Shown in pieces: positions 1 through 10,862 of a stretch of 64,000 nt of DNA (position 1 is the stretch's first letter; each line of letters opens with the position of its first letter). The DNA comes from Saprospiraceae bacterium (lineage in GTDB: Bacteria; Bacteroidota; Bacteroidia; Chitinophagales; Saprospiraceae): assembly GCA_029262995.1 (NCBI GenBank), contig JAJCYH010000029.1, forward strand, positions 1 through 64,000. Reading direction: 5' to 3'. A program made the translations under genes and the position numbers. The notes under the pieces were generated by a model. It did not search any database. It was not told where the DNA came from and saw only the letters and a program-made list of their open reading frames with translations.

Positions 1-162
1 AGAAATCAAAGGTTAAAAATAATTCATGATAATATTTATAAACTAACAAAGCTTCCTAATAATCAACTATGGAAAGGAAATGACTTTTGTTCCTATTCAT
101 TTCTAAATAAAATCGATAGTATAATTATAAAAAAAATCCCATCAGGGAATTGGAAGAATTAA
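1..162 (+). CDS. C-terminal end of an unknown protein (partial)
   Basis: Frame 1 is open from the first base to a TAA at 160-162, giving 53 residues that end in SGNWKN. The gene begins outside the window. The piece is rich in Lys, Asn and Ile like its neighbours and shows no motif I recognise. It lies on the same strand as all other genes of the accessory region. It could also be a chance reading frame, since only 53 codons are visible. Confidence 0.45.
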   Translation, partial: RNQRLKIIHDNIYKLTKLPNNQLWKGNDFCSYSFLNKIDSIIIKKIPSGNWKN

Positions 163-296
163 ACCTATATTCAAGTACAAAAGTGTAGCTTGATTTCAAC
201 TTATTTTTTAACCAACGTGGTTTAAATAATCGAGGTAGTTAATATTTTATTTAAAAAACAAACACTTACTTTTATGTTGTTTTTGATCCTATTGGA

Positions 297-980
297 ATGT
301 TTTATGCCACAAACAAGTTAGGTACAAGTCTTAAACTATTTACTCTAATAATAACATACAGATTGAATCGATTATTTTTTATACTAATAATTATATTTTC
401 GTTTATCAAATGCTCATCTATTAAAGAGAAACCTCTTCTCCTATACGATACTGAAAACAACTTAGTATCACAAGATGAGTTTTACAAGAAAATGGATTTT
501 AGATATAATATAGACGTTTACTATGAAACAGATACAAGTCGTGTAGGAGCATTGGTTATAAGAAGTAAATTCGGAAAATTTGATTCTATTAATTTTGGTG
601 AGATTAAAAAGTTACTTTCTTTATCTTTTGACACAATCATTGACTTCAACAAGCCTGTAGTTATTAATTATTATTTAGACTTAAAAGACAATGTTGATTG
701 TGCGCATGAATTTTATTTTGAATCCACAACAGAAGAACTGATTAATTTTTATTCACAATTTAATATACTACATGTAGTAGATAAATATTACAGTCATAAT
801 TTGAAATTCAACAAGATCAAAGTAGATAAATTAGATTTAATACGTAGCACTTTTATTAAATATAGAATTCGATGTCTAAATTATATTGCTATTAAACCAA
901 ATGGTTCATATTACTATTGCATTGGTGATGGGTGTTCAATATATAACACACTATTAGAAGACTGGCCAGATCTGAAATAG
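297..980 (+). CDS. Unknown protein with N-terminal membrane or lipoprotein signal
   Basis: A 227-residue reading frame of unknown function. Residues about 24-39 form a hydrophobic stretch ending in FIKCSS, which could be a membrane anchor or a poor lipoprotein signal (Lys in place of a small residue before Cys). A shorter form starting at an internal TTG nearer that segment would give a more normal signal peptide, so the start is uncertain. The rest is a soluble, Tyr- and Asn-rich domain with four further Cys. It stands alone, and is followed 13 bases later by an attC-like palindrome, as a cassette gene would be. No family recognised. Confidence 0.6.
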   Translation: MFYATNKLGTSLKLFTLIITYRLNRLFFILIIIFSFIKCSSIKEKPLLLYDTENNLVSQDEFYKKMDFRYNIDVYYETDTSRVGALVIRSKFGKFDSINFGEIKKLLSLSFDTIIDFNKPVVINYYLDLKDNVDCAHEFYFESTTEELINFYSQFNILHVVDKYYSHNLKFNKIKVDKLDLIRSTFIKYRIRCLNYIAIKPNGSYYYCIGDGCSIYNTLLEDWPDLK

Positions 981-993
981 GATAATGACCTGT

Positions 994-1159
994 ACCTAAT
1001 AATGCAGGATCACCCCATCTCAGTTCATGCGTTATATTAACATAATCAGTCAATTGATTTAATTATCTTGAACTTATAGCGCATATCCACTGAGACCACA
1101 CTTCGCCCTGTCGCTATCACGCGACGACGGACTCGTTGGGGATCTGCTAGACGTTAGGT
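994..1159 (+). repeat. attC-like imperfect palindrome 1
   Basis: The left end ACCTAA..GCAG(G)ATC(A)CCCC at 994-1016 is complementary to the right end GGGGATCTGC..TTAGGT at 1138-1159. One extra G and one extra A are left unpaired in the left arm. The right end carries GTTAGGT (1153-1159), which fits the integron core GTTRRRY. The left box ACCTAAT is one base off RYYYAAC. A small internal hairpin GTCGC/GCGAC lies at 1110-1125. The element is GC-richer than its surroundings and sits between one gene's stop and the next gene's promoter. At 166 bases it is longer than classical attC sites. Assignment as attC is inference. Confidence 0.55.
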
Positions 1160-1209
1160 GGAATTCCTTAGAATTGGCCTTCAAAATACCTACAATAAGA
1201 TAAATCAAA

Positions 1210-1241
1210 TTTGCAGATATTACCAATTTTTGGTAACTTTG
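1210..1241 (+). promoter_or_regulatory. Bacteroidota-type promoter with embedded inverted repeat
   Basis: TTTG (1210-1213) and TAACTTTG (1234-1241) match the -33 and TAnnTTTG -7 elements, 20 bases apart. The spacer holds the perfect inverted repeat TTACCA/TGGTAA (1220-1225 and 1231-1236). This places a probable operator inside the promoter, suited to autorepression by the ribbon-helix-helix antitoxin encoded next. Confidence 0.65.
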
Positions 1242-1257
1242 TGCAAAATCATTGATT

Positions 1258-1509
1258 ATGGGAAAAAATACATCAATAGCACTCGGACAACATTTTGAGG
1301 ACTTTGTCAAATTTAGAATTAACGAAGGAAGGTACAAAAACGCAAGTGAAGTAATTAGAGCAGGACTCAGATTATTAGAAGAAGAGGAACAAAAATTCTA
1401 TGCTTTAAAAACAGCAATTCAAGAAGGCATTGATAGTGGAATTGTTGAAAATTTTGATCCAAAAGAACATTTAAAGAAAATGAAGCTTGAACGATCCAAA
1501 AATGAGTAG
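1258..1509 (+). CDS. ParD/CopG-family antitoxin
   Basis: An 83-residue type II antitoxin starting at ATG 1258; the track's 1252 start is a TTG two codons upstream. The N-terminal half (SIALGQHFEDFVKF..GRYKNASEVIRAGLRLLE) is the ribbon-helix-helix DNA-binding fold typical of ParD. The charged C-terminal half (IDSGIVENFDPKEHL) is the usual toxin-wrapping tail. It should bind and silence the toxin encoded next and repress its own promoter, where an inverted repeat sits between the -33 and -7 elements. The toxin start overlaps its stop by eight bases (ATGAGTAG), which implies translational coupling. Confidence 0.88.
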   Translation: MGKNTSIALGQHFEDFVKFRINEGRYKNASEVIRAGLRLLEEEEQKFYALKTAIQEGIDSGIVENFDPKEHLKKMKLERSKNE

Positions 1510-1801
1510 TTATCTTTTAACCGAAAAAGCTATTAAGGATTTAACTGAGATTTGGAATTACACAGTAGATACTTGGTCAGAAAATCAAGCGGATAAATAT
1601 TATAAAGAACTTGTAAACTTCTGTCAAACATTATCTGAAAAACCACAAAATAGCAGAAGTTATAGTCAGCTTATCCCAAGCTTGAAGGGAGTAAAAATAA
1701 ATAGGCATATTGTTTTCTACCGTGAAATATCAGAAACTGTAATAGAAATTGAAAGAATACTTCACGAACAAATGGATTTAAAAACTAATCTTGATAAATA
1801 A
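1502..1801 (+). CDS. RelE/ParE-family toxin
   Basis: A 99-residue toxin of the RelE/ParE superfamily. The ATG at 1502 is chosen because it overlaps the antitoxin stop; the track's 1487 start is an upstream TTG. Typical features are the N-terminal YLLTEKAIKDLTEIWNY helix-turn, the central PxxSRSYSQLIPSLKG-like stretch, the strand VKINRHIVFYRE, and the C-terminal IEIERILHEQMDL. Family members inhibit gyrase (ParE) or cleave mRNA on ribosomes (RelE). The partner being ParD-like favours the ParE branch, but the sequence alone does not decide the target. The frame appears intact. Confidence 0.88.
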   Translation: MSSYLLTEKAIKDLTEIWNYTVDTWSENQADKYYKELVNFCQTLSEKPQNSRSYSQLIPSLKGVKINRHIVFYREISETVIEIERILHEQMDLKTNLDK

Positions 1802-1813
1802 TACCCCACACAC

Positions 1814-1948
1814 AATATGCATGACGGCAGCTCAGGCGAAGCATTACTCTACTACATTCAAATAAAATGACTAACTTAATATTATGAACACGTTCAGTCG
1901 CCTGAGACGATGTTCCTCGGGATTGTTCTGCATGCATTGAACGTTGTA
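1814..1948 (+). repeat. attC-like imperfect palindrome 2
   Basis: Two nested complementary pairs are visible: ATGCATG at 1817-1823 with CATGCAT at 1931-1937, and the perfect 9-base CTCAGGCGA at 1831-1839 with TCGCCTGAG at 1898-1906. The right end reads AACGTTGTAG, close to but not matching GTTRRRY. It follows the RelE-like toxin by a few bases. The 68-codon reading frame listed at 1910-2116 runs through it and is not considered a gene. Confidence 0.5.
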
Positions 1949-2112
1949 GGCAGAGAAGGCAAAGCGCTAGAGATTAGATCAAATATGTTAAAATTTATAT
2001 TCGTAAATATTTGTGAACCAAACTTTAGTTTGAGGATTTTAAAATGGGCTCAAATAATTGAACAGTTTCAACCTAATCTTTGTAATTTAGGTATAAGAAA
2101 ACAAGATCAACC

Positions 2113-2340
2113 ATGAAAACATTGACCATCAACATAACAGAAAAAGAGTTTCTCAAATTTGGATTCGAATCTAAAAACCTAAATTTCGAAGAATTTGTCC
2201 GGAAGATAAAGATTGATTTAGCTAAAGAAGCAATGATTAAATGTCAATCTATTGCTGAGAAAGCTGGTTTGTCAAATTTGACTTTAGATGAAATTGATGC
2301 TGAAATCAAAGCAGTAAGGAATGTAAAAGGTAATAATTGA
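2113..2340 (+). CDS. Antitoxin of a PIN-domain toxin module
   Basis: A 75-residue small protein whose product and position fit the antitoxin partner of the PIN-domain gene that follows. It has a short N-terminal strand (MKTLTINITEKEF), a helical middle and an acidic end (LTLDEIDAEIKAVRN), a pattern common in antitoxins paired with PIN toxins of the COG1569 type. There is no recognisable DNA-binding motif beyond that. Its last codons overlap the start region of the toxin. The call rests mainly on context and size. Confidence 0.7.
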   Translation: MKTLTINITEKEFLKFGFESKNLNFEEFVRKIKIDLAKEAMIKCQSIAEKAGLSNLTLDEIDAEIKAVRNVKGNN

Positions 2341-2743
2341 TACCAATGTCATTGTATCAGCCTTAATTTCAAAAGGAATTCCCTCCAAGATAATTTATGA
2401 CCTTGTCCTCAACGAAAAAATTGAGATTTGTATTTCTGATAAAATATTTGAGGAATACGTTGATGTCCTTAACCGGGAAAAGTTTTCAAGATTCCCCGAT
2501 TTCAAAACGAATGCCAATATAGTAATAAGTATAATTGATGAATTAGCTATTCATGAAAATCCTATACAAGAAGTTGAAATGCTGAAAGACCTAGATGACA
2601 ATAAATTTTTAGAGTTTGCAATTGAAGTTGAAGCCGATTTTATCATCACAGGAAATAACAGAGATTTTACAATTAAAGAGATTGGAGCCACAAAGATTGT
2701 AACTCCAACGGAGTATTGGAATAATTGCAAATCAAAGGATTGA
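2321..2743 (+). pseudogene. PIN-domain toxin with a stop codon at position 2
   Basis: The frame from 2330 to the TGA at 2741-2743 encodes about 137 residues of a PIN-domain ribonuclease: VIIDTNVIVSAL at the start, an acidic EEYVDVL, a central LDDNKFLEFAI and the final strand IITGNNRDF. All the acidic residues of the metal site appear present. Homologues normally start M(K)KVIIDTN. Here the codons are ATG TAA AAG GTA ATA ATT, so the expected ATG (2321) is followed directly by a stop, one A-to-T change from AAA. No ATG, GTG or TTG lies between that stop and the domain. Either the toxin is dead or it starts at a rare codon such as ATA/ATT by coupling to the antitoxin. Confidence 0.75.
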
Positions 2744-2752
2744 TGAAAAATG

Positions 2753-3153
2753 CCTACAATCGATTAGACGGCCGTGAGCAATAAAGCCCACGGTGCGCCT
2801 CTCACATTTATCTGCCGAAAGGCATGACCACCGTACGTACGGACCTTCCCGCTCAGCGGGACAGGCTGTATATGCTTACGCCGAAGCTTCAGCATAGGCG
2901 CTACGGCAGTTCACTAAATCTAAAATCCAACTTTAGAGTAGCAATAAGTAAAGGATATATAACCATTACGTTTGGGTAATGATAATGTAATTGCAATACC
3001 AAGAATAGGACTTTGGGCTATTGCCCAACCGCCCATTATGCTTCTACTCCACGCATAAGCCATCCATTTATTAACCCCCAGACTAATGAGATTCTTAGGT
3101 TTACGCTCAGGCTTTTTCCAGTCATGCCTCCTAATATTACTTTCTGTTCTTGT
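2753..3153 (-). mobile_element. Group II intron 3' remnant, copy 1
   Basis: On the minus strand this reads as the end of a group II intron reverse transcriptase followed by the RNA 3' domains. The RNA part contains the characteristic CCGTACGTACGGTGGTC, a GTGAGAGGCGCACC stretch, a strong GC hairpin, and ends near CCGTCTAATCGATTG. The first 277 bases (2753-3029) recur at 6143-6425 in the same orientation. The 5' part of the intron and most of the enzyme are missing. It lies antisense to all neighbouring genes. Confidence 0.75.
2920..3153 (-). pseudogene. Reverse transcriptase/maturase C-terminal fragment
   Basis: The last 77 codons of a group II intron-encoded protein, with an in-frame stop upstream on the minus strand. 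The fragment reads RRHDWKKPERKPKNLISLGV, then WMAYAWSRS.MGGWAIAQSPIL and GYISFTYCYSKVGF before the stop. This matches the maturase-type C-terminus (Lx-LG-x-A-W then W-x-A-x-SPIL-x-T) of such enzymes. The polymerase domain with its YADD box is absent, so it cannot be active. It is part of the larger intron remnant. Confidence 0.75.
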
Positions 3154-3326
3154 TTAGAATATAGATCGGCGTAGCCTTCTACTTGAAGTTACGCTCGTTC
3201 GATAATCGTATTTCTTTTTTTCTCATTGTATCAAGTTTTTAAGTGTTTGCAACATTTAATACTCTGGATTTTTTTATGGTAACTTCTATTTAGCATTGTA
3301 ATAAGGGATATCGCACTAGTGATTTA
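3154..3326. other. Non-coding stretch between intron remnant and attC-like site
   Basis: No gene is seen. A short inverted repeat GCGTA/TACGC near 3172-3197 resembles the GC-rich arms of the other palindromes and could be a relic of a further site. The remainder is AT-rich with many stops in all frames. Confidence 0.4.
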
Positions 3327-3407
3327 GTTCAACAAACGCTGATCACAGCATAGTTTCTGCCGCAAGCACAACATAGAAAATTACGCTGGATAGCTGGACC
3401 GTTAGAC
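3327..3407 (+). repeat. attC-like site 3, best match to integron attC
   Basis: It begins with GTTCAAC (3327-3333), a full RYYYAAC match, and ends with GTTAGAC (3401-3407), a full GTTRRRY match, 81 bases in all and within the known attC range. Inside, the left arm ATC(A)CAGC.TA.TTT.CT is complementary to the right arm around AG.AAAA.TA.GCTG.GAT, with one unpaired A. Outer boxes, inner arms and an extrahelical base in one arm are the defining traits of attC. It precedes hicA by about 65 bases. Whether a recombinase acts on it is inference. Confidence 0.65.
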
Positions 3408-3472
3408 ACAAGCCAAACATTGCAACTGTTCTTTAGTTGCATAACCGTAATTAAAACAAGATATTTACATTA

Positions 3473-3709
3473 ATGAGTAAATATGACAAAATCTTAGAGC
3501 GATTAATAGATAGTTCTATTATATCGACTTTTCAAGAATTAGAACATATACTAAAGAAATTAGGAAAAACTTCTGAATCTAGGGCAACAAATTACGATGA
3601 TAAAAAAAATCATATTATTAGAATTCATAAACCACATCCAGGTAATAAATTGAAAAAATATGTAAAAAAGTATATTGTAAGTGAATTAAAGAAAAACAAT
3701 TTGATATGA
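3473..3709 (+). CDS. HicA-family mRNA interferase toxin
   Basis: A 78-residue protein of the HicA type, a small double-stranded-RNA-binding-like fold that cleaves mRNA. The core HIIRIHKPHPGNKLKKYVKKYIVSELKK shows the family's central His and the PHPGxxLKxxxxxxILxxL ending. The N-terminal helix (KILERLIDSSIISTFQELEHIL) has diverged. Its stop overlaps the start of the HicB antitoxin by four bases (ATGA), the normal toxin-first order of hicAB operons. An attC-like site lies just upstream. Length and frame are intact. Confidence 0.82.
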   Translation: MSKYDKILERLIDSSIISTFQELEHILKKLGKTSESRATNYDDKKNHIIRIHKPHPGNKLKKYVKKYIVSELKKNNLI

Positions 3710-4050
3710 TAGATAGGATAAAATATAAAGAATTCATTGGATCAGTACACTTTTCTGCAGATGATGATTTATTCTTCGGTAAAATTGAAGGCGTCAATGA
3801 CCTAGTTACTTTTGAAGGAAATACTGTCATACAATTAAAGAAAGCGTTTAAGGAAGCGGTAGAGGACTATTTAGATTTGTGCAAACAAACAGGAAAAGAA
3901 ATATTTAAATCATTTAAAGGTTCTTTTAATGTTAGAATAAACCCTGAATTACATTCTTTAGCCTTTGAGAAAACAGCATTAGAAGGAAAAACTCTTAACC
4001 AATTTGTTCAAGACGCCATAGAGCATAAAGTAAAACATGCTACTGAATAA
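3706..4050 (+). CDS. HicB-family antitoxin
   Basis: A 114-residue antitoxin for the preceding HicA. The N-terminal partly degraded RNase H-like fold is seen in YKEFIGSVHFSADDDLFFGKIEGVNDLVTFEG and the DYLDLCKQTGK turn. The C-terminal FNVRINPELHSLAFEKTALEGKTLNQFVQDAI is a ribbon-helix-helix DNA-binding domain, so the protein likely binds its own promoter as well as the toxin. Its ATG overlaps the toxin stop. Confidence is high because both domains and the operon arrangement agree. Confidence 0.9.
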   Translation: MIDRIKYKEFIGSVHFSADDDLFFGKIEGVNDLVTFEGNTVIQLKKAFKEAVEDYLDLCKQTGKEIFKSFKGSFNVRINPELHSLAFEKTALEGKTLNQFVQDAIEHKVKHATE

Positions 4051-4070
4051 ATAAATAAAATTGGCTGCAT

Positions 4071-4108
4071 CTACATTGCAGTATTAACATATCTGTTAGA
4101 CGTTGTAG
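4071..4108 (+). repeat. attC-like hairpin 4 upstream of the aconitase gene
   Basis: CTACA (4071-4075) pairs with TGTAG (4104-4108) and TAACA (4085-4089) with TGTTA (4094-4098), around a four-base loop. GTTAGAC at 4096-4102 matches GTTRRRY and is followed by GTTGTAG. It is much shorter than the other palindromes, so it may be a truncated site. It ends about 28 bases before the next start codon. Confidence 0.4.
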
Positions 4109-4135
4109 AACTGGCAAAAAATTAAACTTTCAAGT

Positions 4136-6082
4136 ATGAAAAGTCAAAACCTTAGTCAAAAATTGATCAGTGCTCATCTTGTTTCAGGTAACATGAATCC
4201 CGGGAACGAAATCGCATTAAAAATTGATCAGATATTATTGCAAGATGCCACAGGCACCTTAGTAATGCTGGAATTGGAAGCGTTTAATTTAAATAAGATC
4301 AAAACAGAGATAGCAGTGCAGTATGTAGACCACAATCTACTCCAAACGGACTATAAGAACATGGATGATCATATCTTTTTACAGTCAGCCGCTGCTCGCT
4401 TTGGATTCTGGTTTAGTAAATCTGGAAACGGAATTAGTCATGTTGTCCATATGGAACGGTTTGGCAAACCAGGAAAAACCCTATTGGGTTCAGATAGTCA
4501 TACTCCTGCAGGAGGTGGTATTGGAATGCTTGCATTAGGAACAGGTGGCTTGGATGTTGCACTAGCTTCTGCTGGTGAGCCTTATTATATTAAAATGCCA
4601 AAAATCATGGGCATCAAGCTCACTGGAAAGCTGCCTAACTGGGTAAGTGCTAAAGATATTATTTTAGAAATGCTTCGAAGGTATGATGTGACCGGGGGGC
4701 GTGGGTATATCTTAGAATATTACGGTGAGGGCTTGAAATATTTGAGCGCTTGGGATCGTCATGTCATTACGAACATGGGCACGGAATTAGGTGCCACTTC
4801 TTCTGTATTTCCTTCCGATGAAATAACTCGTAAATTCCTTCGAAAGGAAGGAAGAGAAGAAGATTGGGTTAAATTTGAAGCCGATGAAGGAGCATCTTAC
4901 GATCATTACGAGGAAATAAATTTATCTGAACTAGAACCTTTAATTGCACTTCCAAGCAGCCCCGGAAAAGTTGTCCCGGTAAGAGAGGTTAGCGGATTAA
5001 AAGTAGCCCAAGTCGTTATTGGCTCTTCTGCAAATCCCGGACTACGTGATTTTTGGATCGTATCTCAAATTGTAAAAGGAAATGTGATGTCTCCCCATAT
5101 TTCATTTGATGTCAACCCATCTTCTCGTCAGGTCTTGGAAAATTTAATGGAAATGAAGGCTCTTGCACCATTAATTGCTGCTGGGGCAAGACTACATCAA
5201 TCCGGTTGTATGGGATGCATTGGTATGGGACAGGCACCTGCTACCAATACGATTAGTCTTCGAACAATGCCTCGTAATTTTCCCGGACGTTCAGGCACAC
5301 TAGAAGATGAGGTCTATCTATGTAGCCCAGAAACAGCTGCAGCTGCGGCACTAATGGGGGAAATTACTGATCCGAGAGAACTCGAAACACTCAAGAATAT
5401 TTCATATCCAAAATGGGAAGAACCTACCCATATTAAGATAAATAAGAATAATCTAATTGCTCCTAATGGGGAATCTACTAAATTAATTAAGGGGCCGAAC
5501 ATTAAAAAGCTTCCCGATTTTGAAGAGCTTCCCGATGAAATAGAAATTCCCATTCTATTAAAAATGGATGACAATATTTCCACGGATGGAATATTGAAAG
5601 CAGGTAGTGATGTGCTGCCTTTGCGTTCAAATATTCCAGAGATAAGCAAGTTTGCTTATTATGCCATTGATCAAAGTTTCTATCATCGTAGCATTGAAAA
5701 TCAAAATAAATATAAAGAGTTTTGTGTGATTGCAGGTGAAAATTATGCCCAAGGTTCAAGCAGAGAACATGCAGCTTTAGCTCCTAGGTATTTGGGACAA
5801 AGGTTTGTTATCGCCAAATCCTATGCTCGCATTGGCTGGCAGAATCTAATCAATTTTGGTATCGTTCCTTTTGAGTTTAAAAACCCACTTGATTGGGACA
5901 AACTAGAACAAGGGGATGTTTTACGTATAGAAAATATTAGGGAAATTATCAAAAACAAGGATTCAATAACTGCCACCATAGTTGGAAAAGCAATAGAAAT
6001 TCAGCTAAGCTTCAATATCAGTAAAAGACAAGTTGAAATCATTTTAAAAGGAGGTATTATAAATTATATAAAGCAAAGGTGA
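4136..6082 (+). CDS. Aconitase-family hydro-lyase (short, Aquifex type)
   Basis: A 648-residue enzyme of the aconitase superfamily, close to the short form described as Aquifex type rather than the 750-900-residue AcnA/AcnB. Visible landmarks are SDSHT (119-123), GGIGMLALGTGGLDVA, the CMGC pair (C358, C361), GRSGT near 385, CSPETAAAAA (396 on) and the swivel domain GSSREHAALAPR. The position equivalent to the first iron-sulfur ligand (GSCTN in classical aconitases) reads GSSAN, with Ser298. The expected role is citrate-isocitrate interconversion in the cytoplasm, but the missing ligand leaves substrate and cluster open. It sits between a HicAB module and an intron remnant, an odd place for a TCA-cycle gene. 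Confidence 0.85.
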   Translation: MKSQNLSQKLISAHLVSGNMNPGNEIALKIDQILLQDATGTLVMLELEAFNLNKIKTEIAVQYVDHNLLQTDYKNMDDHIFLQSAAARFGFWFSKSGNGISHVVHMERFGKPGKTLLGSDSHTPAGGGIGMLALGTGGLDVALASAGEPYYIKMPKIMGIKLTGKLPNWVSAKDIILEMLRRYDVTGGRGYILEYYGEGLKYLSAWDRHVITNMGTELGATSSVFPSDEITRKFLRKEGREEDWVKFEADEGASYDHYEEINLSELEPLIALPSSPGKVVPVREVSGLKVAQVVIGSSANPGLRDFWIVSQIVKGNVMSPHISFDVNPSSRQVLENLMEMKALAPLIAAGARLHQSGCMGCIGMGQAPATNTISLRTMPRNFPGRSGTLEDEVYLCSPETAAAAALMGEITDPRELETLKNISYPKWEEPTHIKINKNNLIAPNGESTKLIKGPNIKKLPDFEELPDEIEIPILLKMDDNISTDGILKAGSDVLPLRSNIPEISKFAYYAIDQSFYHRSIENQNKYKEFCVIAGENYAQGSSREHAALAPRYLGQRFVIAKSYARIGWQNLINFGIVPFEFKNPLDWDKLEQGDVLRIENIREIIKNKDSITATIVGKAIEIQLSFNISKRQVEIILKGGIINYIKQR

Positions 6083-6142
6083 TTTACAATTTTGTTCTTT
6101 TGTAAGATATGTTTTTACTAACAAATTAGTATCAAAACCCGT

Positions 6143-6425
6143 CCTCCAATCGATTAGATGGCTTCGCTCCAAGCTAAGTTGAAGCGGAGTGCAGCTCTCA
6201 CATTTATCTGCCGAAAGACATGATAACCATACGTGCCGACCTTCCCGCTCAGCGGGACAAGCTGTATATGCTTACGCCGAAGCTTCAGCATAGGCGCTAC
6301 GGCGGTTCACTAAATCGAAAGTCCAACTTTAGAGTAGTAATAAGTCAAGGATATATAACCATTACGTTTGAGTAATGATACTGTAATTGCAATACCAAGA
6401 ATAGGACTTTGAGCTATTGCCCAAC
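6143..6425 (-). mobile_element. Group II intron 3' remnant, copy 2
   Basis: A diverged second copy of 2753-3029 in the same orientation. On the minus strand it reads WAIAQSPILGIAIT...KRNGYISLTYYYSKVGLSI and a stop, then the RNA 3' domains with the CGTATGG equivalent, the same CCCGCTGAGCGGG hairpin and a final hairpin whose stem sequence has been replaced (GCTTCGCTCC..GGAGTGCAGC) but whose ability to pair is kept. The shared sequence stops exactly after GCCCAAC (6419-6425). Compensatory change in the hairpin suggests two separately inserted but related introns rather than a simple duplication. Confidence 0.7.
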
Positions 6426-6552
6426 TTAGGGCGATGAACTTTTCAGAATTCAATTATTATTTATAGCTTACGCTAAATAAACGGCAGACTGCATGTACAA
6501 TTCACAGATAGCTTGTTAAACACTTCACAAAGGCTATCTTTAACGTTGGCAA
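6416..6552 (+). repeat. attC-like imperfect palindrome 5
   Basis: ATTGC(C)CAAC at 6416-6425 is complementary to GTTGGCAAT at 6544-6552 with one unpaired C, and the adjoining TTAGGGCGATGAACTTT resembles the reverse complement of the right side. Shorter repeats GATAGC/GCTATC (6507-6537) and GTTAAA/TTTAAC lie inside. The left box GCCCAAC fits RYYYAAC and is also the last shared heptamer of intron copy 2. The right end GTTGGCA misses GTTRRRY at one position. The next gene starts 19 bases downstream. Confidence 0.5.
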
Positions 6553-6570
6553 TAATTCAATATAAGGAAT

Positions 6571-7224
6571 ATGACAAACATTACTTCTAATAAGAATTTT
6601 GAAGAAATAGAACATAGCGATCTGGAAATTATTAAACTGATATGGTTTAACCCTAGGTATGTATTTAAATACTTATTAAATAAAAATTATCAAAAATGGG
6701 TATTGCTATTAATGATATTGGGTGGAATTGCAGCCTTATTAGAAAACACTTCCAGCAAAGATTACGGTGATAAAATACCTGTTTATGGAGTGATAATAAT
6801 AGCAATTATTGGAGGTGTATTTTTTGGCTGGATTGGTTTTTACATCTATTCTTTATTACTTTCTTGGACTGGAAAATGGCTTAATGGTAAAGCAGATTCG
6901 GATTCTCTCCTATTGGTAATTGCGTATGCTCAAATACCAATAGCATTTGGTATAATAATTTATATTTCACAATTACTCATTTTTGATACAAGCGAATTTA
7001 GTTTTGATCAAATTCGAAACCTTGAAACAAATTTAAAATTGATTGCTATCTTGCTTTTGGGAATTGAAATAATACTATCTGCTTGGTCACTTGTAATTGG
7101 AATAATTGGAATATCAGAAGTTCAAAAATTTACCATTTTGAAATCAATAATAAATTTGATTTTGCCAACATTAGTAGTAGCATTACCAATAATTATTTGT
7201 GTATTAATATTAAAAGCGATATAG
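6571..7224 (+). CDS. Yip1-domain membrane protein
   Basis: A 217-residue integral membrane protein of the Yip1 family. It starts with a cytoplasmic segment containing IIKLIWFNPRYVFKYLL, the usual W-x-x-P-R motif before the first membrane segment, and then has about five hydrophobic helices (residues roughly 43-57, 75-97, 113-135, 154-178, 190-215). Bacterial members have no settled role; eukaryotic Yip1 acts in vesicle transport. It is followed 17 bases later by a patatin gene, and the two probably form one transcription unit and perhaps one two-gene cassette. Confidence 0.8.
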   Translation: MTNITSNKNFEEIEHSDLEIIKLIWFNPRYVFKYLLNKNYQKWVLLLMILGGIAALLENTSSKDYGDKIPVYGVIIIAIIGGVFFGWIGFYIYSLLLSWTGKWLNGKADSDSLLLVIAYAQIPIAFGIIIYISQLLIFDTSEFSFDQIRNLETNLKLIAILLLGIEIILSAWSLVIGIIGISEVQKFTILKSIINLILPTLVVALPIIICVLILKAI

Positions 7225-7241
7225 AAAACTAAATATTTGTA

Positions 7242-8114
7242 ATGAAAAAGATATCATTAGTTTTGTCAGGAGGAGGGGCAAGAGGAATTGCACATGTCGG
7301 AGTTTTGGAAGAGTTAGAAAAACAAGGTTATGAAATTCACTCTATAACAGGAACTTCTATGGGAGCAGTTGTTGGTGGAATTTATGCTGCTGGAAAAATT
7401 AAAGAGTTTAAAAAATGGATTCTAGATCTCAATAAAATAGACATATTTAAATTAGTGGATTTCACTCTTTTTAATAGTGGTTTTATTAAAGGAGACAAAG
7501 TGTTTAAAGAATTGTCAACCTTCATTGAGGATAATCAAATTCAGAATTTATCCATTAAGTTTTCTGCAACTGCTACTGATTTAGTTACTAGAAAAGAAGT
7601 ACTTTTCACAGAAGGAAGTCTGTATAATGCAATGCGTGCTTCGATAGCAATTCCAAATGTTTTAACACCTGTAAAAAATGAAAGCTCTATCCTTGTTGAT
7701 GGTGGTGTAGTAAATAATATTCCTATCAATCATGCGCAACGTATTGACAATGATCTTTTGATTGCTGTTAATGTAAATGCCAATATTCCTCTACCTATAA
7801 AGAAAGAAAATGAAGATAAAGAGAAGCAGTCCTATTATCAAAGTATTTTAAATAATTTTAATATTAGCTTAGATAAATTAATTTCAAATGACAAGAAAAT
7901 AAAGTTAGACTATTTTGATATTATGAATGATTCATTTGAAATAATGAGAGATGCATTGGTGAAATTATCTCTTGAGAATAATCCACCTGATATTTTGATA
8001 GAGACACCCCGGGATATCTGTAATATCTATGATTTTTATAAAGCAGATGAATTAATTGAAATAGGGCATAAAGCGACAATAAAAAGTATAAAGAATTATA
8101 CTAATCAATCATAA
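7242..8114 (+). CDS. Patatin-like phospholipase
   Basis: A 290-residue patatin-family lipid acyl hydrolase with a Ser-Asp dyad. The oxyanion loop GGGARG is at 10-15, the nucleophile elbow GTSMG at 37-41 (Ser39), and the DGG motif (VDGGVVNNIP) at about 150. The C-terminal 100 residues are charged and lack a recognised domain. There is no signal peptide, so it likely acts inside the cell, on membrane lipids. Its neighbour 17 bases upstream is the Yip1-like membrane protein, which hints at a shared membrane role. It is intact and follows the family's usual compact length. Confidence 0.92.
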   Translation: MKKISLVLSGGGARGIAHVGVLEELEKQGYEIHSITGTSMGAVVGGIYAAGKIKEFKKWILDLNKIDIFKLVDFTLFNSGFIKGDKVFKELSTFIEDNQIQNLSIKFSATATDLVTRKEVLFTEGSLYNAMRASIAIPNVLTPVKNESSILVDGGVVNNIPINHAQRIDNDLLIAVNVNANIPLPIKKENEDKEKQSYYQSILNNFNISLDKLISNDKKIKLDYFDIMNDSFEIMRDALVKLSLENNPPDILIETPRDICNIYDFYKADELIEIGHKATIKSIKNYTNQS

Positions 8115-8138
8115 ACCGACTTAAGTAGAATATAAAAA

Positions 8139-8279
8139 GCTAACAATAACTGGCTACAATGTATAAAACTAATAGCCGGTTCAGTAGTGAATTCAAGGGT
8201 TGTAGTCCGCTTCAATTTTCTTGTAATTTGACAGGGAAATACCATGCAGTCGGCTACTATTCTTACACAAGGACGGTTA
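8139..8279 (+). repeat. attC-like compound palindrome 6
   Basis: It starts with CTAACAA and ends with GGACGGTTAGTC. ACTGGCTA (8149-8156) pairs with TAGCCGGT (8173-8180) with one mismatch, and TAGCCG (8173-8178) also pairs with CGGCTA further right (8251-8256), so more than one fold is possible. It follows the patatin stop and precedes the frameshifted lipoprotein. The GTTAG end resembles the other sites, though GTTAGTC is one base off GTTRRRY. Confidence 0.45.
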
Positions 8280-8308
8280 GTCAGAATTAATTTAAAATCA
8301 ATTAATAA

Positions 8309-8583
8309 ATGCTAAATTATATATTGGATATTTTTTAAGTGTCTTGTATTTACTTTTATATGCATGTGGAAATCAAGAATCAACTGAGGATCAAGTATCT
8401 GCTATCAATTGCATTGATGACCCAAATAATGAAAGTATTGGTATAGGTCGTATTTATGTTCCAAATATTCTCATTCATAATGAACTTGGTTCCAATAATA
8501 GCAAACTTAGGGTCTTTACAAGTTATAAAAATATAATTGTAAAGTCGTTTAAAATATACAAAGATAAAAGTGCCTTACCCTGA
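8309..8583 (+). pseudogene. Small lipoprotein gene with a frameshift in its signal peptide
   Basis: The open frame from 8344 encodes LYLLLYACGNQES followed by about 65 residues ending in KIYKDKSALP. LLYAC is a good lipobox, but no normal start lies in frame. An ATG at 8309 reads MLNYILDIF then stops in a run of six T. Adding one T would join it to FLSVLYLLLYACGN, a complete lipoprotein signal. This suggests loss of one T from a T7 run, or a sequencing error. The body of the protein is unknown and appears cut short where it runs into the insertion-sequence remnant. Confidence 0.55.
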
Positions 8584-9070
8584 AATAGGCTTACACAAAA
8601 AGTGTAAACATGGACAAAAAATTAAATCGATTTCAGGATTAAAAAGAGGTGAAATAATCCAAAAACCGAATAAATATTTTTCAGAAGCTGAAAAACATTT
8701 TATCATTCAAGAATTATTATCAACCGGATGTACCAAAGCTCAAATTTGGGAAAAACATACTGGTCAGTTAGAAGAACACGGACAACTTTTACGTTGGCTG
8801 CGGCAATTAGGATATGATTCTTCTATTAAAACAAGAAGATCTAATTTTAACACACAAACAAACATCTGTAATGGCATCAAAAAAAGAAACTAAAACATTT
8901 TCGATAACTAACGAGATTGATGATTTTGAAATGCTTCAATTGAAAAAATTTTAGCCGAACTCAAACAAAAATTAAAAGATGCCGATATAAAAGCTATTGC
9001 TTACGCCACAATGGTTGATATAGCAGAAAAGGAGTTTAATGTTCAGATTATAAAAAAAACAGGCAGATAA
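8570..9070 (+). pseudogene. IS3-family OrfA remnant
   Basis: Three reading frames together restore an IS3-type OrfA. The first (to 8893) has the helix-turn-helix part KYFSEAEKHFIIQELLSTGC...HGQLLRWLRQLGYD. The second starts at 8871 (MASKKETKTFSITNEIDDFEMLQ). The third, from about 8942 to 9070, has the family's C-terminus LKDADIKAIAYATMVDIAEKEF..QIIKKTGR. At least two frameshifts separate them, one next to an A6 run at 8943. No OrfB integrase with the DDE core follows and no terminal inverted repeats were recognised. It marks the downstream edge of the accessory region. Confidence 0.75.
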
Positions 9071-9170
9071 ATAAATTAAAGACTAACTCATAGAAACTTA
9101 ATGTTTTCCATTAGATAAATCTTTAATATGAGAGCATTATAGAATTGTATGTTAATAATTGAAATTAAAC

Positions 9171-9200
9171 AAAAAAAAAGCTGTCCTATACAGACAGCCT
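9171..9200 (-). terminator. Rho-independent terminator of the hydrolase gene
   Basis: On the minus strand GCTGTC (loop TGTATAG) GACAGC is followed by nine T. It lies 31 bases past the stop of the T9SS hydrolase and ends the receptor-hydrolase operon. Confidence 0.85.
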
Positions 9201-9230
9201 TTCAAATTGTATTTTTATAAAACAATAATA

Positions 9231-10862
9231 CTACTCAACCAAAAGCTTCTTAGTCGTTACGCCTTCTTCAAATCTAATTTGTATATTATACAAACCACCT
9301 TGTAATTCAGAACGGTTAATTTCTAAGTAATTACTGTTTACGTTTGTGTGCCTTTTCATAAGTTGTCCAGACATGTTAAATATCAAAACCTCCTTTATCA
9401 GCATGTTACCCGTTTCAATCAAAGAGTATGTACTCATTGGGTTCGGACTTAGTTTAACAAAAGAATTATCAAGTATTTCTTCTGTTGATGAAGTAAAGTT
9501 AGCCGCACATGGTAAATCAAGCGCTACACAAGCTCTAGGCAGAACATAAGACATTATTTCATTTATGTTGGCTCTAGCTTTTTCAGCAGACATGTTCTCA
9601 TTTAATCGCAGGCCTTGATCATGAAATGTTCCCCCCGATGGGTGAGGCAATTGATTCCAAGGAACGCCTGCAGGAGAAATCGCATTTGGATCCCACCAAT
9701 CAACAACAACGCCTTCAGGTATTCCCATTGAATTTACAGGTCTTACAAAAGGAAATGTTCCTTCATAGTAAGCATGTCCTGCAACTCCTGAACTCGCCAT
9801 TGCCGTAGCTGTAACAACATCATCAAAGTTGGCCTCTTTCCAAATCTGATTTGTGCCATTAGCTTCTTGAGCAGCTCCTACAAGAGAAGCTCCTTGAACC
9901 TGAACAATTGGATCTCCCGTTGTAGGAACAATCAATACTGCATCACCATAAGGTGCAAAAATATCAAACGGAGATTGAATAGAAATAATTGGTGTTGTAA
10001 CTCCATTCATCCATGAAATATCACCCAGTGCTCCTCCTATATTTATGCTTAGCGCAAAATCATTAGCGAAACCAGGTGAATTAGGGTAATTGGTCGTGTC
10101 ACCAGGCGGCAAACCAAATCCTTGAGAAGATCCATCAGGTGGTGTTACAGTTAACACTTCACCATTGACATCTCCATGAAAGGCTTGAATCACCATTGGT
10201 GTTTCCGGAATACTATCATTATTTAAATCCAGTAAAAATTTACCTGCTGGATTTGTCGTAAGGATGATTTGATTGTATTCTACTAAAGCTGTTAGTGCTA
10301 AAGATAAATAACCTCCCGTTCCAACGCCAAAAACTGTAATTTTGCTTTCATCAATACCAAAATCGTTAGCTCCTTCTACATCTGCTCGGAAGTATCTGAT
10401 CGCACTTCTTCCATCTTGTATTCCTCGGTAAGCTGCTTGTATTAAACCAAGAGCTCTTTCTGGCTGAAGACTAGCCAATGGATTCCAGCCAGTTCTGTAA
10501 TCAACAGACGCAGCAACATAGCCCCTTCTGGCAAACAAGTTGCAAATCTCTACTACTGAAGAGTCCCGTTTGGTTCCGCTGATTTGTCCGTTAAGCATAT
10601 TTGGTAAAAAGTTTCCTGTATGAAAAACCAAAACCAGTGGTCTTGATGTTTCTGTGTCACCCGCTGGTTCATAAACGTCCATAGTAAGAGGAATAGGCAC
10701 AGCTTCTCCTACTAAAGGTAATTGTAATACTGTTGCGTTGACAGCATAGACAACATCAGCAGTAACTTCTACATCAGCAAATACCTCATCTAGGTATCTG
10801 TCCTGAGCAGTAAGTCCAATGGCGACAAAAAATAAGATTAATAGTGTAAGATTCTTTTTCAT
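9231..10862 (-). CDS. T9SS-exported alpha/beta hydrolase-like protein without the usual serine
   Basis: A 543-residue exported protein. The start MKKNLTLLILFFVAIGLTAQ (ATG at 10862) gives a clean signal peptide, so the track's 14 extra residues are dropped. The body looks like a carboxylesterase-type alpha/beta hydrolase: RPLVLVFHTGNF with the oxyanion-like loop, a YRTGW segment, and ITVFGVGTGGYLSLAL where families have GxSxG. Gly181 replaces the nucleophile Ser. The last 80 residues (VKLSPNPMSTYSLIE...GLYNIQI...TKKLLVE) are a type A T9SS sorting domain, so it is secreted or surface-held. It lies 42 bases behind a TonB-dependent receptor and ahead of a terminator, so the two likely serve one uptake or binding task. 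Confidence 0.8.
   Translation of the reverse strand: MKKNLTLLILFFVAIGLTAQDRYLDEVFADVEVTADVVYAVNATVLQLPLVGEAVPIPLTMDVYEPAGDTETSRPLVLVFHTGNFLPNMLNGQISGTKRDSSVVEICNLFARRGYVAASVDYRTGWNPLASLQPERALGLIQAAYRGIQDGRSAIRYFRADVEGANDFGIDESKITVFGVGTGGYLSLALTALVEYNQIILTTNPAGKFLLDLNNDSIPETPMVIQAFHGDVNGEVLTVTPPDGSSQGFGLPPGDTTNYPNSPGFANDFALSINIGGALGDISWMNGVTTPIISIQSPFDIFAPYGDAVLIVPTTGDPIVQVQGASLVGAAQEANGTNQIWKEANFDDVVTATAMASSGVAGHAYYEGTFPFVRPVNSMGIPEGVVVDWWDPNAISPAGVPWNQLPHPSGGTFHDQGLRLNENMSAEKARANINEIMSYVLPRACVALDLPCAANFTSSTEEILDNSFVKLSPNPMSTYSLIETGNMLIKEVLIFNMSGQLMKRHTNVNSNYLEINRSELQGGLYNIQIRFEEGVTTKKLLVE

Follow-up and report, generated by a model that had tools for sequence, protein, structure and literature searches.

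A probable attC-type hairpin site between gene cassettes of a Saprospiraceae bacterium, and a candidate IntI-independent integron of Bacteroidota

Integrons are defined and searched for by their integrase, IntI. An 81-base element in front of a hicAB pair in a Saprospiraceae bacterium raises the question of whether it is an attC site and, if so, which recombinase serves it. The element lies at positions 3327-3407 on the plus strand of the window, by which we mean the whole stretch of DNA analysed, the 64,000 nucleotides of contig JAJCYH010000029.1 (assembly GCA_029262995.1, positions 1 to 64,000). The first-pass annotation had called it a near-canonical attC site with full matches to both core boxes, complementary inner arms and a single extrahelical A, and had offered it as an anchor for the idea that an array is present.

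The core boxes read in the sequence as annotated, with R'' (GTTCAAC) at 3327-3333 and R' (GTTAGAC) at 3401-3407, and the complementary inner arms are present. The extrahelical bases, however, are two, G3341 and A3345, both on the left arm. Folded as DNA, the bottom strand formed a 13-bp stem with two single bulges, the complements of A3345 and G3341, and brought the two core boxes together, though the boxes remained unpaired in the minimum-energy fold. The top strand, folded as DNA, did not form this stem. The fold energy of the site was no better than chance (MFE -8.1 kcal/mol, z -0.63), so the case for an attC-type site rests on comparison. A search of Rfam against the window gave nothing at gathering score.

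For this comparison we used R3, a covariance model trained on 79 sites, all from other genomes, with the window's genome left out. R3 detected the site with 42.7 bits (E 1.6e-7 in 289 kb), as its sole significant match within positions 1-10000 of the window. A paralogue was found at C11:156362-156435 with 92% identity over 74 bases, the only other strong match in the genome. Its identity to the window site starts at the AAC of the left core and stops at the GTTA of the right core, which is the part that travels with a cassette. Further related elements occur in the same genome, and fragments with recognised sites were found on C18, C24, C6 and at C11:226 kb.

Covariation in the hairpin was 0.488 among 17 sites (16 from C11 and the window site), against 0.177 +- 0.022 when shuffled and at most 0.144 when slid. 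Among the 79 sites of other genomes it was 0.548 against 0.180 +- 0.010 when shuffled, in an alignment that had been adjusted to the structure and is biased in its favour. The bottom strand folded better than the top in 93 of 95 sites. One extrahelical position was occupied in all 79 sites (A in 67) and a second in 30 of 79, and a further arm position was A.C on the top strand in 76 of 79, corresponding to a G.T pair on the bottom strand. The strand polarity of the family is that of integron attC sites, and one feature by which integrons are recognised, attC sites with paired core boxes, extrahelical bases and bottom-strand structure, is present. When R3 was run on a class-1 integron, no attC was recognised, indicating that R3 models the present site family only.

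The hairpins are also palindromic and intergenic, and some families occur in near-identical copies, as would be expected of a repeat family or of terminators with no role in recombination. That explanation does not predict the conserved extrahelical base and the A.C apposition on one arm. Nor does it predict two features described below, a unit start that complements the bases before its own hairpin and the linkage to a recombinase, and we consider it scarcely credible.

In the window, the site belongs to a fragment of an array with ParDE, PIN-domain, HicAB, aconitase and patatin units, all on the plus strand, of which it is the single intact site; the contig begins inside the array. The first element is an attC-like site of a second family with a long loop (989..1160, R' GTTAGGTG at 1153); it shares 84-91% identity with copies from the C11 array and is weak in R3 (7.6 bits). 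ParD and ParE toxin-antitoxin genes follow as cassette cargo (1252..1801; PF03693, PF05016), and then a degenerate attC-like site (1806..1949), which is non-significant in R3 by itself (11.9 bits, E 0.44) and is placed by the end rule with 2752. The unit after it (1943..2760) provides the one clear end-complement pair of the window, its start GTTGTAGGC at 1943 complementing its end GCCTACAAT at 2752-2760 in 8 of 9 bases. Within this unit, at 2113..2743, are an antitoxin-like small ORF (2113-2340, no Pfam match) and a PIN-domain toxin gene ending at 2743 (PF13470). The R'' of the 3327-3407 site is a poor complement of the upstream unit starts, with a best match of 6, and the cassette is therefore decayed.

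The unit that starts at the 3327-3407 site carries a HicA-like ORF (no Pfam match) and a HicB gene (3473..4050; HicB PF05534). A possible second-family site with an internal deletion was seen by eye at 4063..4108 (R' GTTGTAGAAC at 4102), and R3 does not recognise it. The next unit holds an aconitase-family gene (4136..6082; PF00330, PF00694), and the complete 648-aa aconitase that it encodes is unusual cargo for a cassette in a decayed array. Yip1-domain and patatin-like genes (6571..8114; PF04893, PF01734) lie in a unit whose ends were placed by eye, starting at about GTTGGCAATA 6545 and ending before GTTAGTCAG 8276. Intercassette gaps in which no attC was recognisable are occupied by a repeat of 237 bases, 93% identical between window positions 2759-3029 and 6189-6425 and found also on C24 and C32. 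Near the array end, an ORF fragment at 8570-8893 resembles, by eye, a remnant of a transposase or helix-turn-helix gene. We conclude with good confidence that 3327-3407 is a hairpin site of the attC type at the junction of two gene cassettes, and that the integron-like array to which they belong survives in the window as a decayed fragment.

The array idea was borne out, with the intact array lying mainly on contig C11. The paralogue of the window site lies there in a 35-kb run of co-oriented cassette genes (C11:152-187 kb). Each unit of this run begins with GTT and about 7 bases, the exact complement of which precedes the AAC of its own hairpin; examples are GTTATAGCCC with GGGCTATAAC and GTTATCCTGC with GCAGGATAAC, and the same rule holds in relatives. 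Such complementarity of start and end is reportedly a known signature of circularised integron cassettes, going back to Stokes and colleagues in 1997. The chain of 26 sites on C11 scored 107, against -1.7 to -3.7 for three Markov shuffles and -2.4 and -2.9 for two control regions; on the reverse strand the chain scored 71, because the sites are nearly palindromic. Of the 77 pairs of neighbouring sites in all the arrays that were examined, 41 matched at 9 or more bases, and many of the others have an unrecognised site between them. A chain scan with loose stem settings was indistinguishable from the controls, and stricter settings were used instead. Counts of exact GTT/AAC pairs over whole contigs were near the shuffled level; consecutive chaining alone was informative. 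Co-oriented cassettes in which the unit start complements the unit's own R'', another integron feature, are present in this genome, and the window itself contributes only its single clear pair.

Among the cargo of the C11 array are a Thoeris pair, ThsB/ThsA (L016:10557-11983), a PD-Lambda-2-like pair (L020:14283-14979), a zeta toxin and Phd/YoeB. The array begins behind a tRNA-Arg(CCT), where there are partial tandem repeats of the tRNA 3' end (L016:5077-5424). A search for same-genus orthologues of the array flanks, for an empty-site comparison, found no close ones.

The search for IntI (TIGR02249) in the window's genome found none above the cut-off, the best match reaching 94.8 of 265 bits; an intI gene with the IntI-specific domain, a further feature of integrons, is absent there. 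Only one of 199 genomes of the family, G028, has IntI above the cut-off (421.9 bits, L024:1204-2448), as against attC-like sites in 82 of the 199 (R1, E <= 0.01). As a background check, R3 at E <= 1e-4 matched 11 of 396 phylum-wide genomes, four of them within the window's family. No R1 or R3 site was found in the 20 kb around the G028 IntI; the sequence upstream of that gene is attC-like by eye and unmatched by the models.

By our own models, the C11 array and the window fragment have at least two close attC sites and no IntI, which is how a CALIN is recognised. Both might be ordinary CALINs, clusters of attC sites left behind, or inserted in trans, by an IntI integron since lost, with the nearby recombinases incidental. 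The lack of IntI in the window's genome fits this explanation, as do the real IntI in one relative and the fact that CALINs are common (PMC9024848, PMC8618304). It is unlikely, in our judgement, given how rarely IntI accompanies the sites in relatives, the absence of family sites around the one IntI found, the failure of the site model to match class-1 attC, and the many genomes in which a non-IntI recombinase with an attI-like flank stands at the array start. In short, the arrays resemble CALINs in being attC arrays of a genome without IntI and differ from them in that intact relatives have a linked non-IntI recombinase, so they are not simply orphaned IntI integrons. The label of near-canonical attC is right as to the type of site, provided that it is not taken to mean an IntI integron.

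The recombinase at the array starts of relatives, which include Saprospiraceae and named Flavobacteriaceae and Cytophagales, is a distinct tyrosine recombinase. The family was found in 112 of 199 genomes, mostly as a single copy of about 360-400 or 580-615 residues. Contigs frequently break off shortly after the gene, as would happen at the beginning of a repetitive array. G004 has three paralogous copies with one and the same 3' flank, GAAAAACCGTAACTCGGATAC.GGAATGTTCG.GTTATA.GGGA; behind it come GTT and a first cassette, the start of which is complementary to that cassette's own R''. The consensus of the attI-like motif before GTT behind the recombinase is GGATATAANNRA|GTT. A cassette-end match of at least 10.5 at the GTT behind the stop codon was seen at 26 of 63 loci, compared with 6 of 1072 single GTTs inside recombinase genes. 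An attI-like site and first cassette are visible in relatives, beside a non-IntI recombinase; in the window, where the contig begins within the array, neither is seen. An initial reading of the recombinases near arrays as merely IS91-associated integrases was dropped once the attI-like flanks were seen.

At 17 recombinase loci, all 39 sites were downstream and co-oriented, of which only the co-orientation is unbiased because the stretches had been cut mostly downstream. Loci of other organisms, taken with up to 6 kb on each side and including Winogradskyella ursingii, Flavobacterium aciduliphilum, Algibacter onchidii, Zunongwangia mangrovi and a Rufibacter, had 20 of 20 sites co-oriented and 18 downstream, giving 59 of 59 co-oriented with the gene for both sets. 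Where at least 1.5 kb was available downstream of the recombinase, 13 of 20 loci had a site; no recognised site was present in the 10 kb downstream at L150, L156, L179, L183 and L184. A cation-transporter-like cassette gene of Algibacter onchidii (L232:10240-11047) shares 86% identity with its counterpart in an array from Saprospiraceae (L174:3904-4709), which suggests, from these sequences, cassette exchange between orders.

The catalytic residues of the array-linked recombinases are conserved. In these proteins 63-69 residues separate the catalytic lysine motif from H-x-x-R, with three apparent exceptions that reflect a second lysine motif upstream; the figure is 106-113 for IntI and 71 for the two Xer proteins of the window's genome. 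The IntI motif W-x-W-x-F-P was found in none of 58 linked recombinases, and these proteins lack the IntI insert of about 42 residues. In a tree of 83 rows, made by a quick method with no bootstrap, IntI formed one clade (SH-aLRT 100), and all array-linked recombinases fell outside it, in more than one group. The nearest solved structures are the Xer-like 5hxy and 4a8e and IntI4 2a3v.

The long form has an additional N-terminal part. HARP-family matches of 35.4 and 29.0 bits (cut-off 25) were obtained there in two proteins, with weaker matches in other long-form proteins and none in short forms. In the predicted structure of a long form (mean pLDDT 81), the core-binding and catalytic domains are preceded by three alpha-beta units that resemble one another. 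HARP domains of the SMARCAL1 type act on DNA with junctions of single and double strands. As a proposal, the HARP-like units could recognise the folded attC and so take the place of the IntI insert.

Folded single-stranded sites can be substrates of Xer enzymes, as is the folded attP of some phages. The host XerC/XerD might in the same way recombine the folded sites here, the linked recombinase being a passenger, and the window's genome does have two Xer-like genes. The Xer rows, only two of which were included, are nevertheless separate from the array recombinases in the tree (SH-aLRT 98), the attI-like motif lies behind the linked recombinase and not behind Xer, and three paralogues in one genome have kept the same attI-like flank. 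We regard a role of the host Xer pair as very improbable, and favour the linked recombinase as the enzyme of the arrays.

In the window's genome itself we found two recombinase genes that are not Xer. Each lies next to cassettes, and neither is intact. On C24, an insert of about 310 bases interrupts the gene directly behind the codon for the catalytic Tyr and contains a GIY-YIG ORF of 87 aa (L018:8694-8957). The C32 copy is truncated at the start of a cassette-like unit (GTTATGTC...GACATAAT). Because both linked copies are broken, the window's array is probably frozen, unless an intact recombinase is in the missing part of the assembly (97.7% complete) or is supplied in trans.

Compared with IntI integrons, both class 1 and sedentary chromosomal, the Bacteroidota arrays share attC-type hairpins with RYYYAAC/GTTRRRY boxes, extrahelical bases on one arm, a bottom-strand bias, co-oriented cassettes with complementary ends, and an attI-like site adjoining a tyrosine recombinase. 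They differ in a recombinase that lacks the IntI-specific insert, lies outside the IntI clade and in its long form has HARP-like units, in a recombinase gene that is co-oriented with the cassettes and has the attI-like site at its 3' end, and in sites whose model misses class-1 attC. With XerA/XerC/XerD and the NCBIfam family NF040815 ('site-specific tyrosine recombinase/integron integrase') the recombinase has in common its catalytic and SAM-like core-binding domains, and it is set apart by the HARP-like N-terminal units of the long form and the association with cassette arrays; NF040815 was among its best matches, but below the cut-off of that family. Judged by sequence, the system is integron-like in its working but falls short of the definition on one point, the IntI-type recombinase.

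Integrons have been described as rare in Bacteroidetes, from which In0 elements and, in Salinibacter, a complete integron have been reported (PMC9024848), and Bacteroidota have been listed among the integron phyla (PMC8618304). The IntI insert has been called essential for integron function, though it is not fully conserved in its subgroup (PMC8138268). We found no prior description of an IntI-independent cassette platform in the open-licence literature, which was the scope of the search.

These observations can be combined into a mechanism. The bottom strand of an attC-type site would fold when single-stranded, and a non-IntI tyrosine recombinase would cut it at G|TT, in the 3327-3407 site at the G|TT of R' on the bottom strand, with the HARP-like N-terminal units perhaps recognising the folded site. 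Strand exchange would follow with another attC or with the attI-like site behind the recombinase's own gene, so that cassettes would be excised as circles and captured at the array start. Hairpin polarity, the complementarity of cassette ends, the co-oriented arrays, and the recombinase and attI-like motif at the array starts of relatives are the parts of this scheme that can be read directly from the genomes. We think it somewhat probable that Bacteroidota carry a second kind of integron that does not depend on IntI. Its tyrosine recombinase would lack the IntI insert, would often have HARP-like N-terminal units, and would capture and shuffle attC cassettes at the attI-like site that directly follows the recombinase gene.

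Such an integron would occur in a large fraction of Saprospiraceae, as well as in Flavobacteriaceae, Cytophagales and Bacteroidales, and searches that look for IntI would not detect it. In the window's genome the array carries Thoeris defence genes and many toxin-antitoxin pairs. If another recombinase does serve the Bacteroidota arrays, this would be an overlooked gene-capture platform in a major environmental phylum, and it would make testable whether recombination of a folded single-stranded attC needs the IntI-specific domain or whether another domain suffices.
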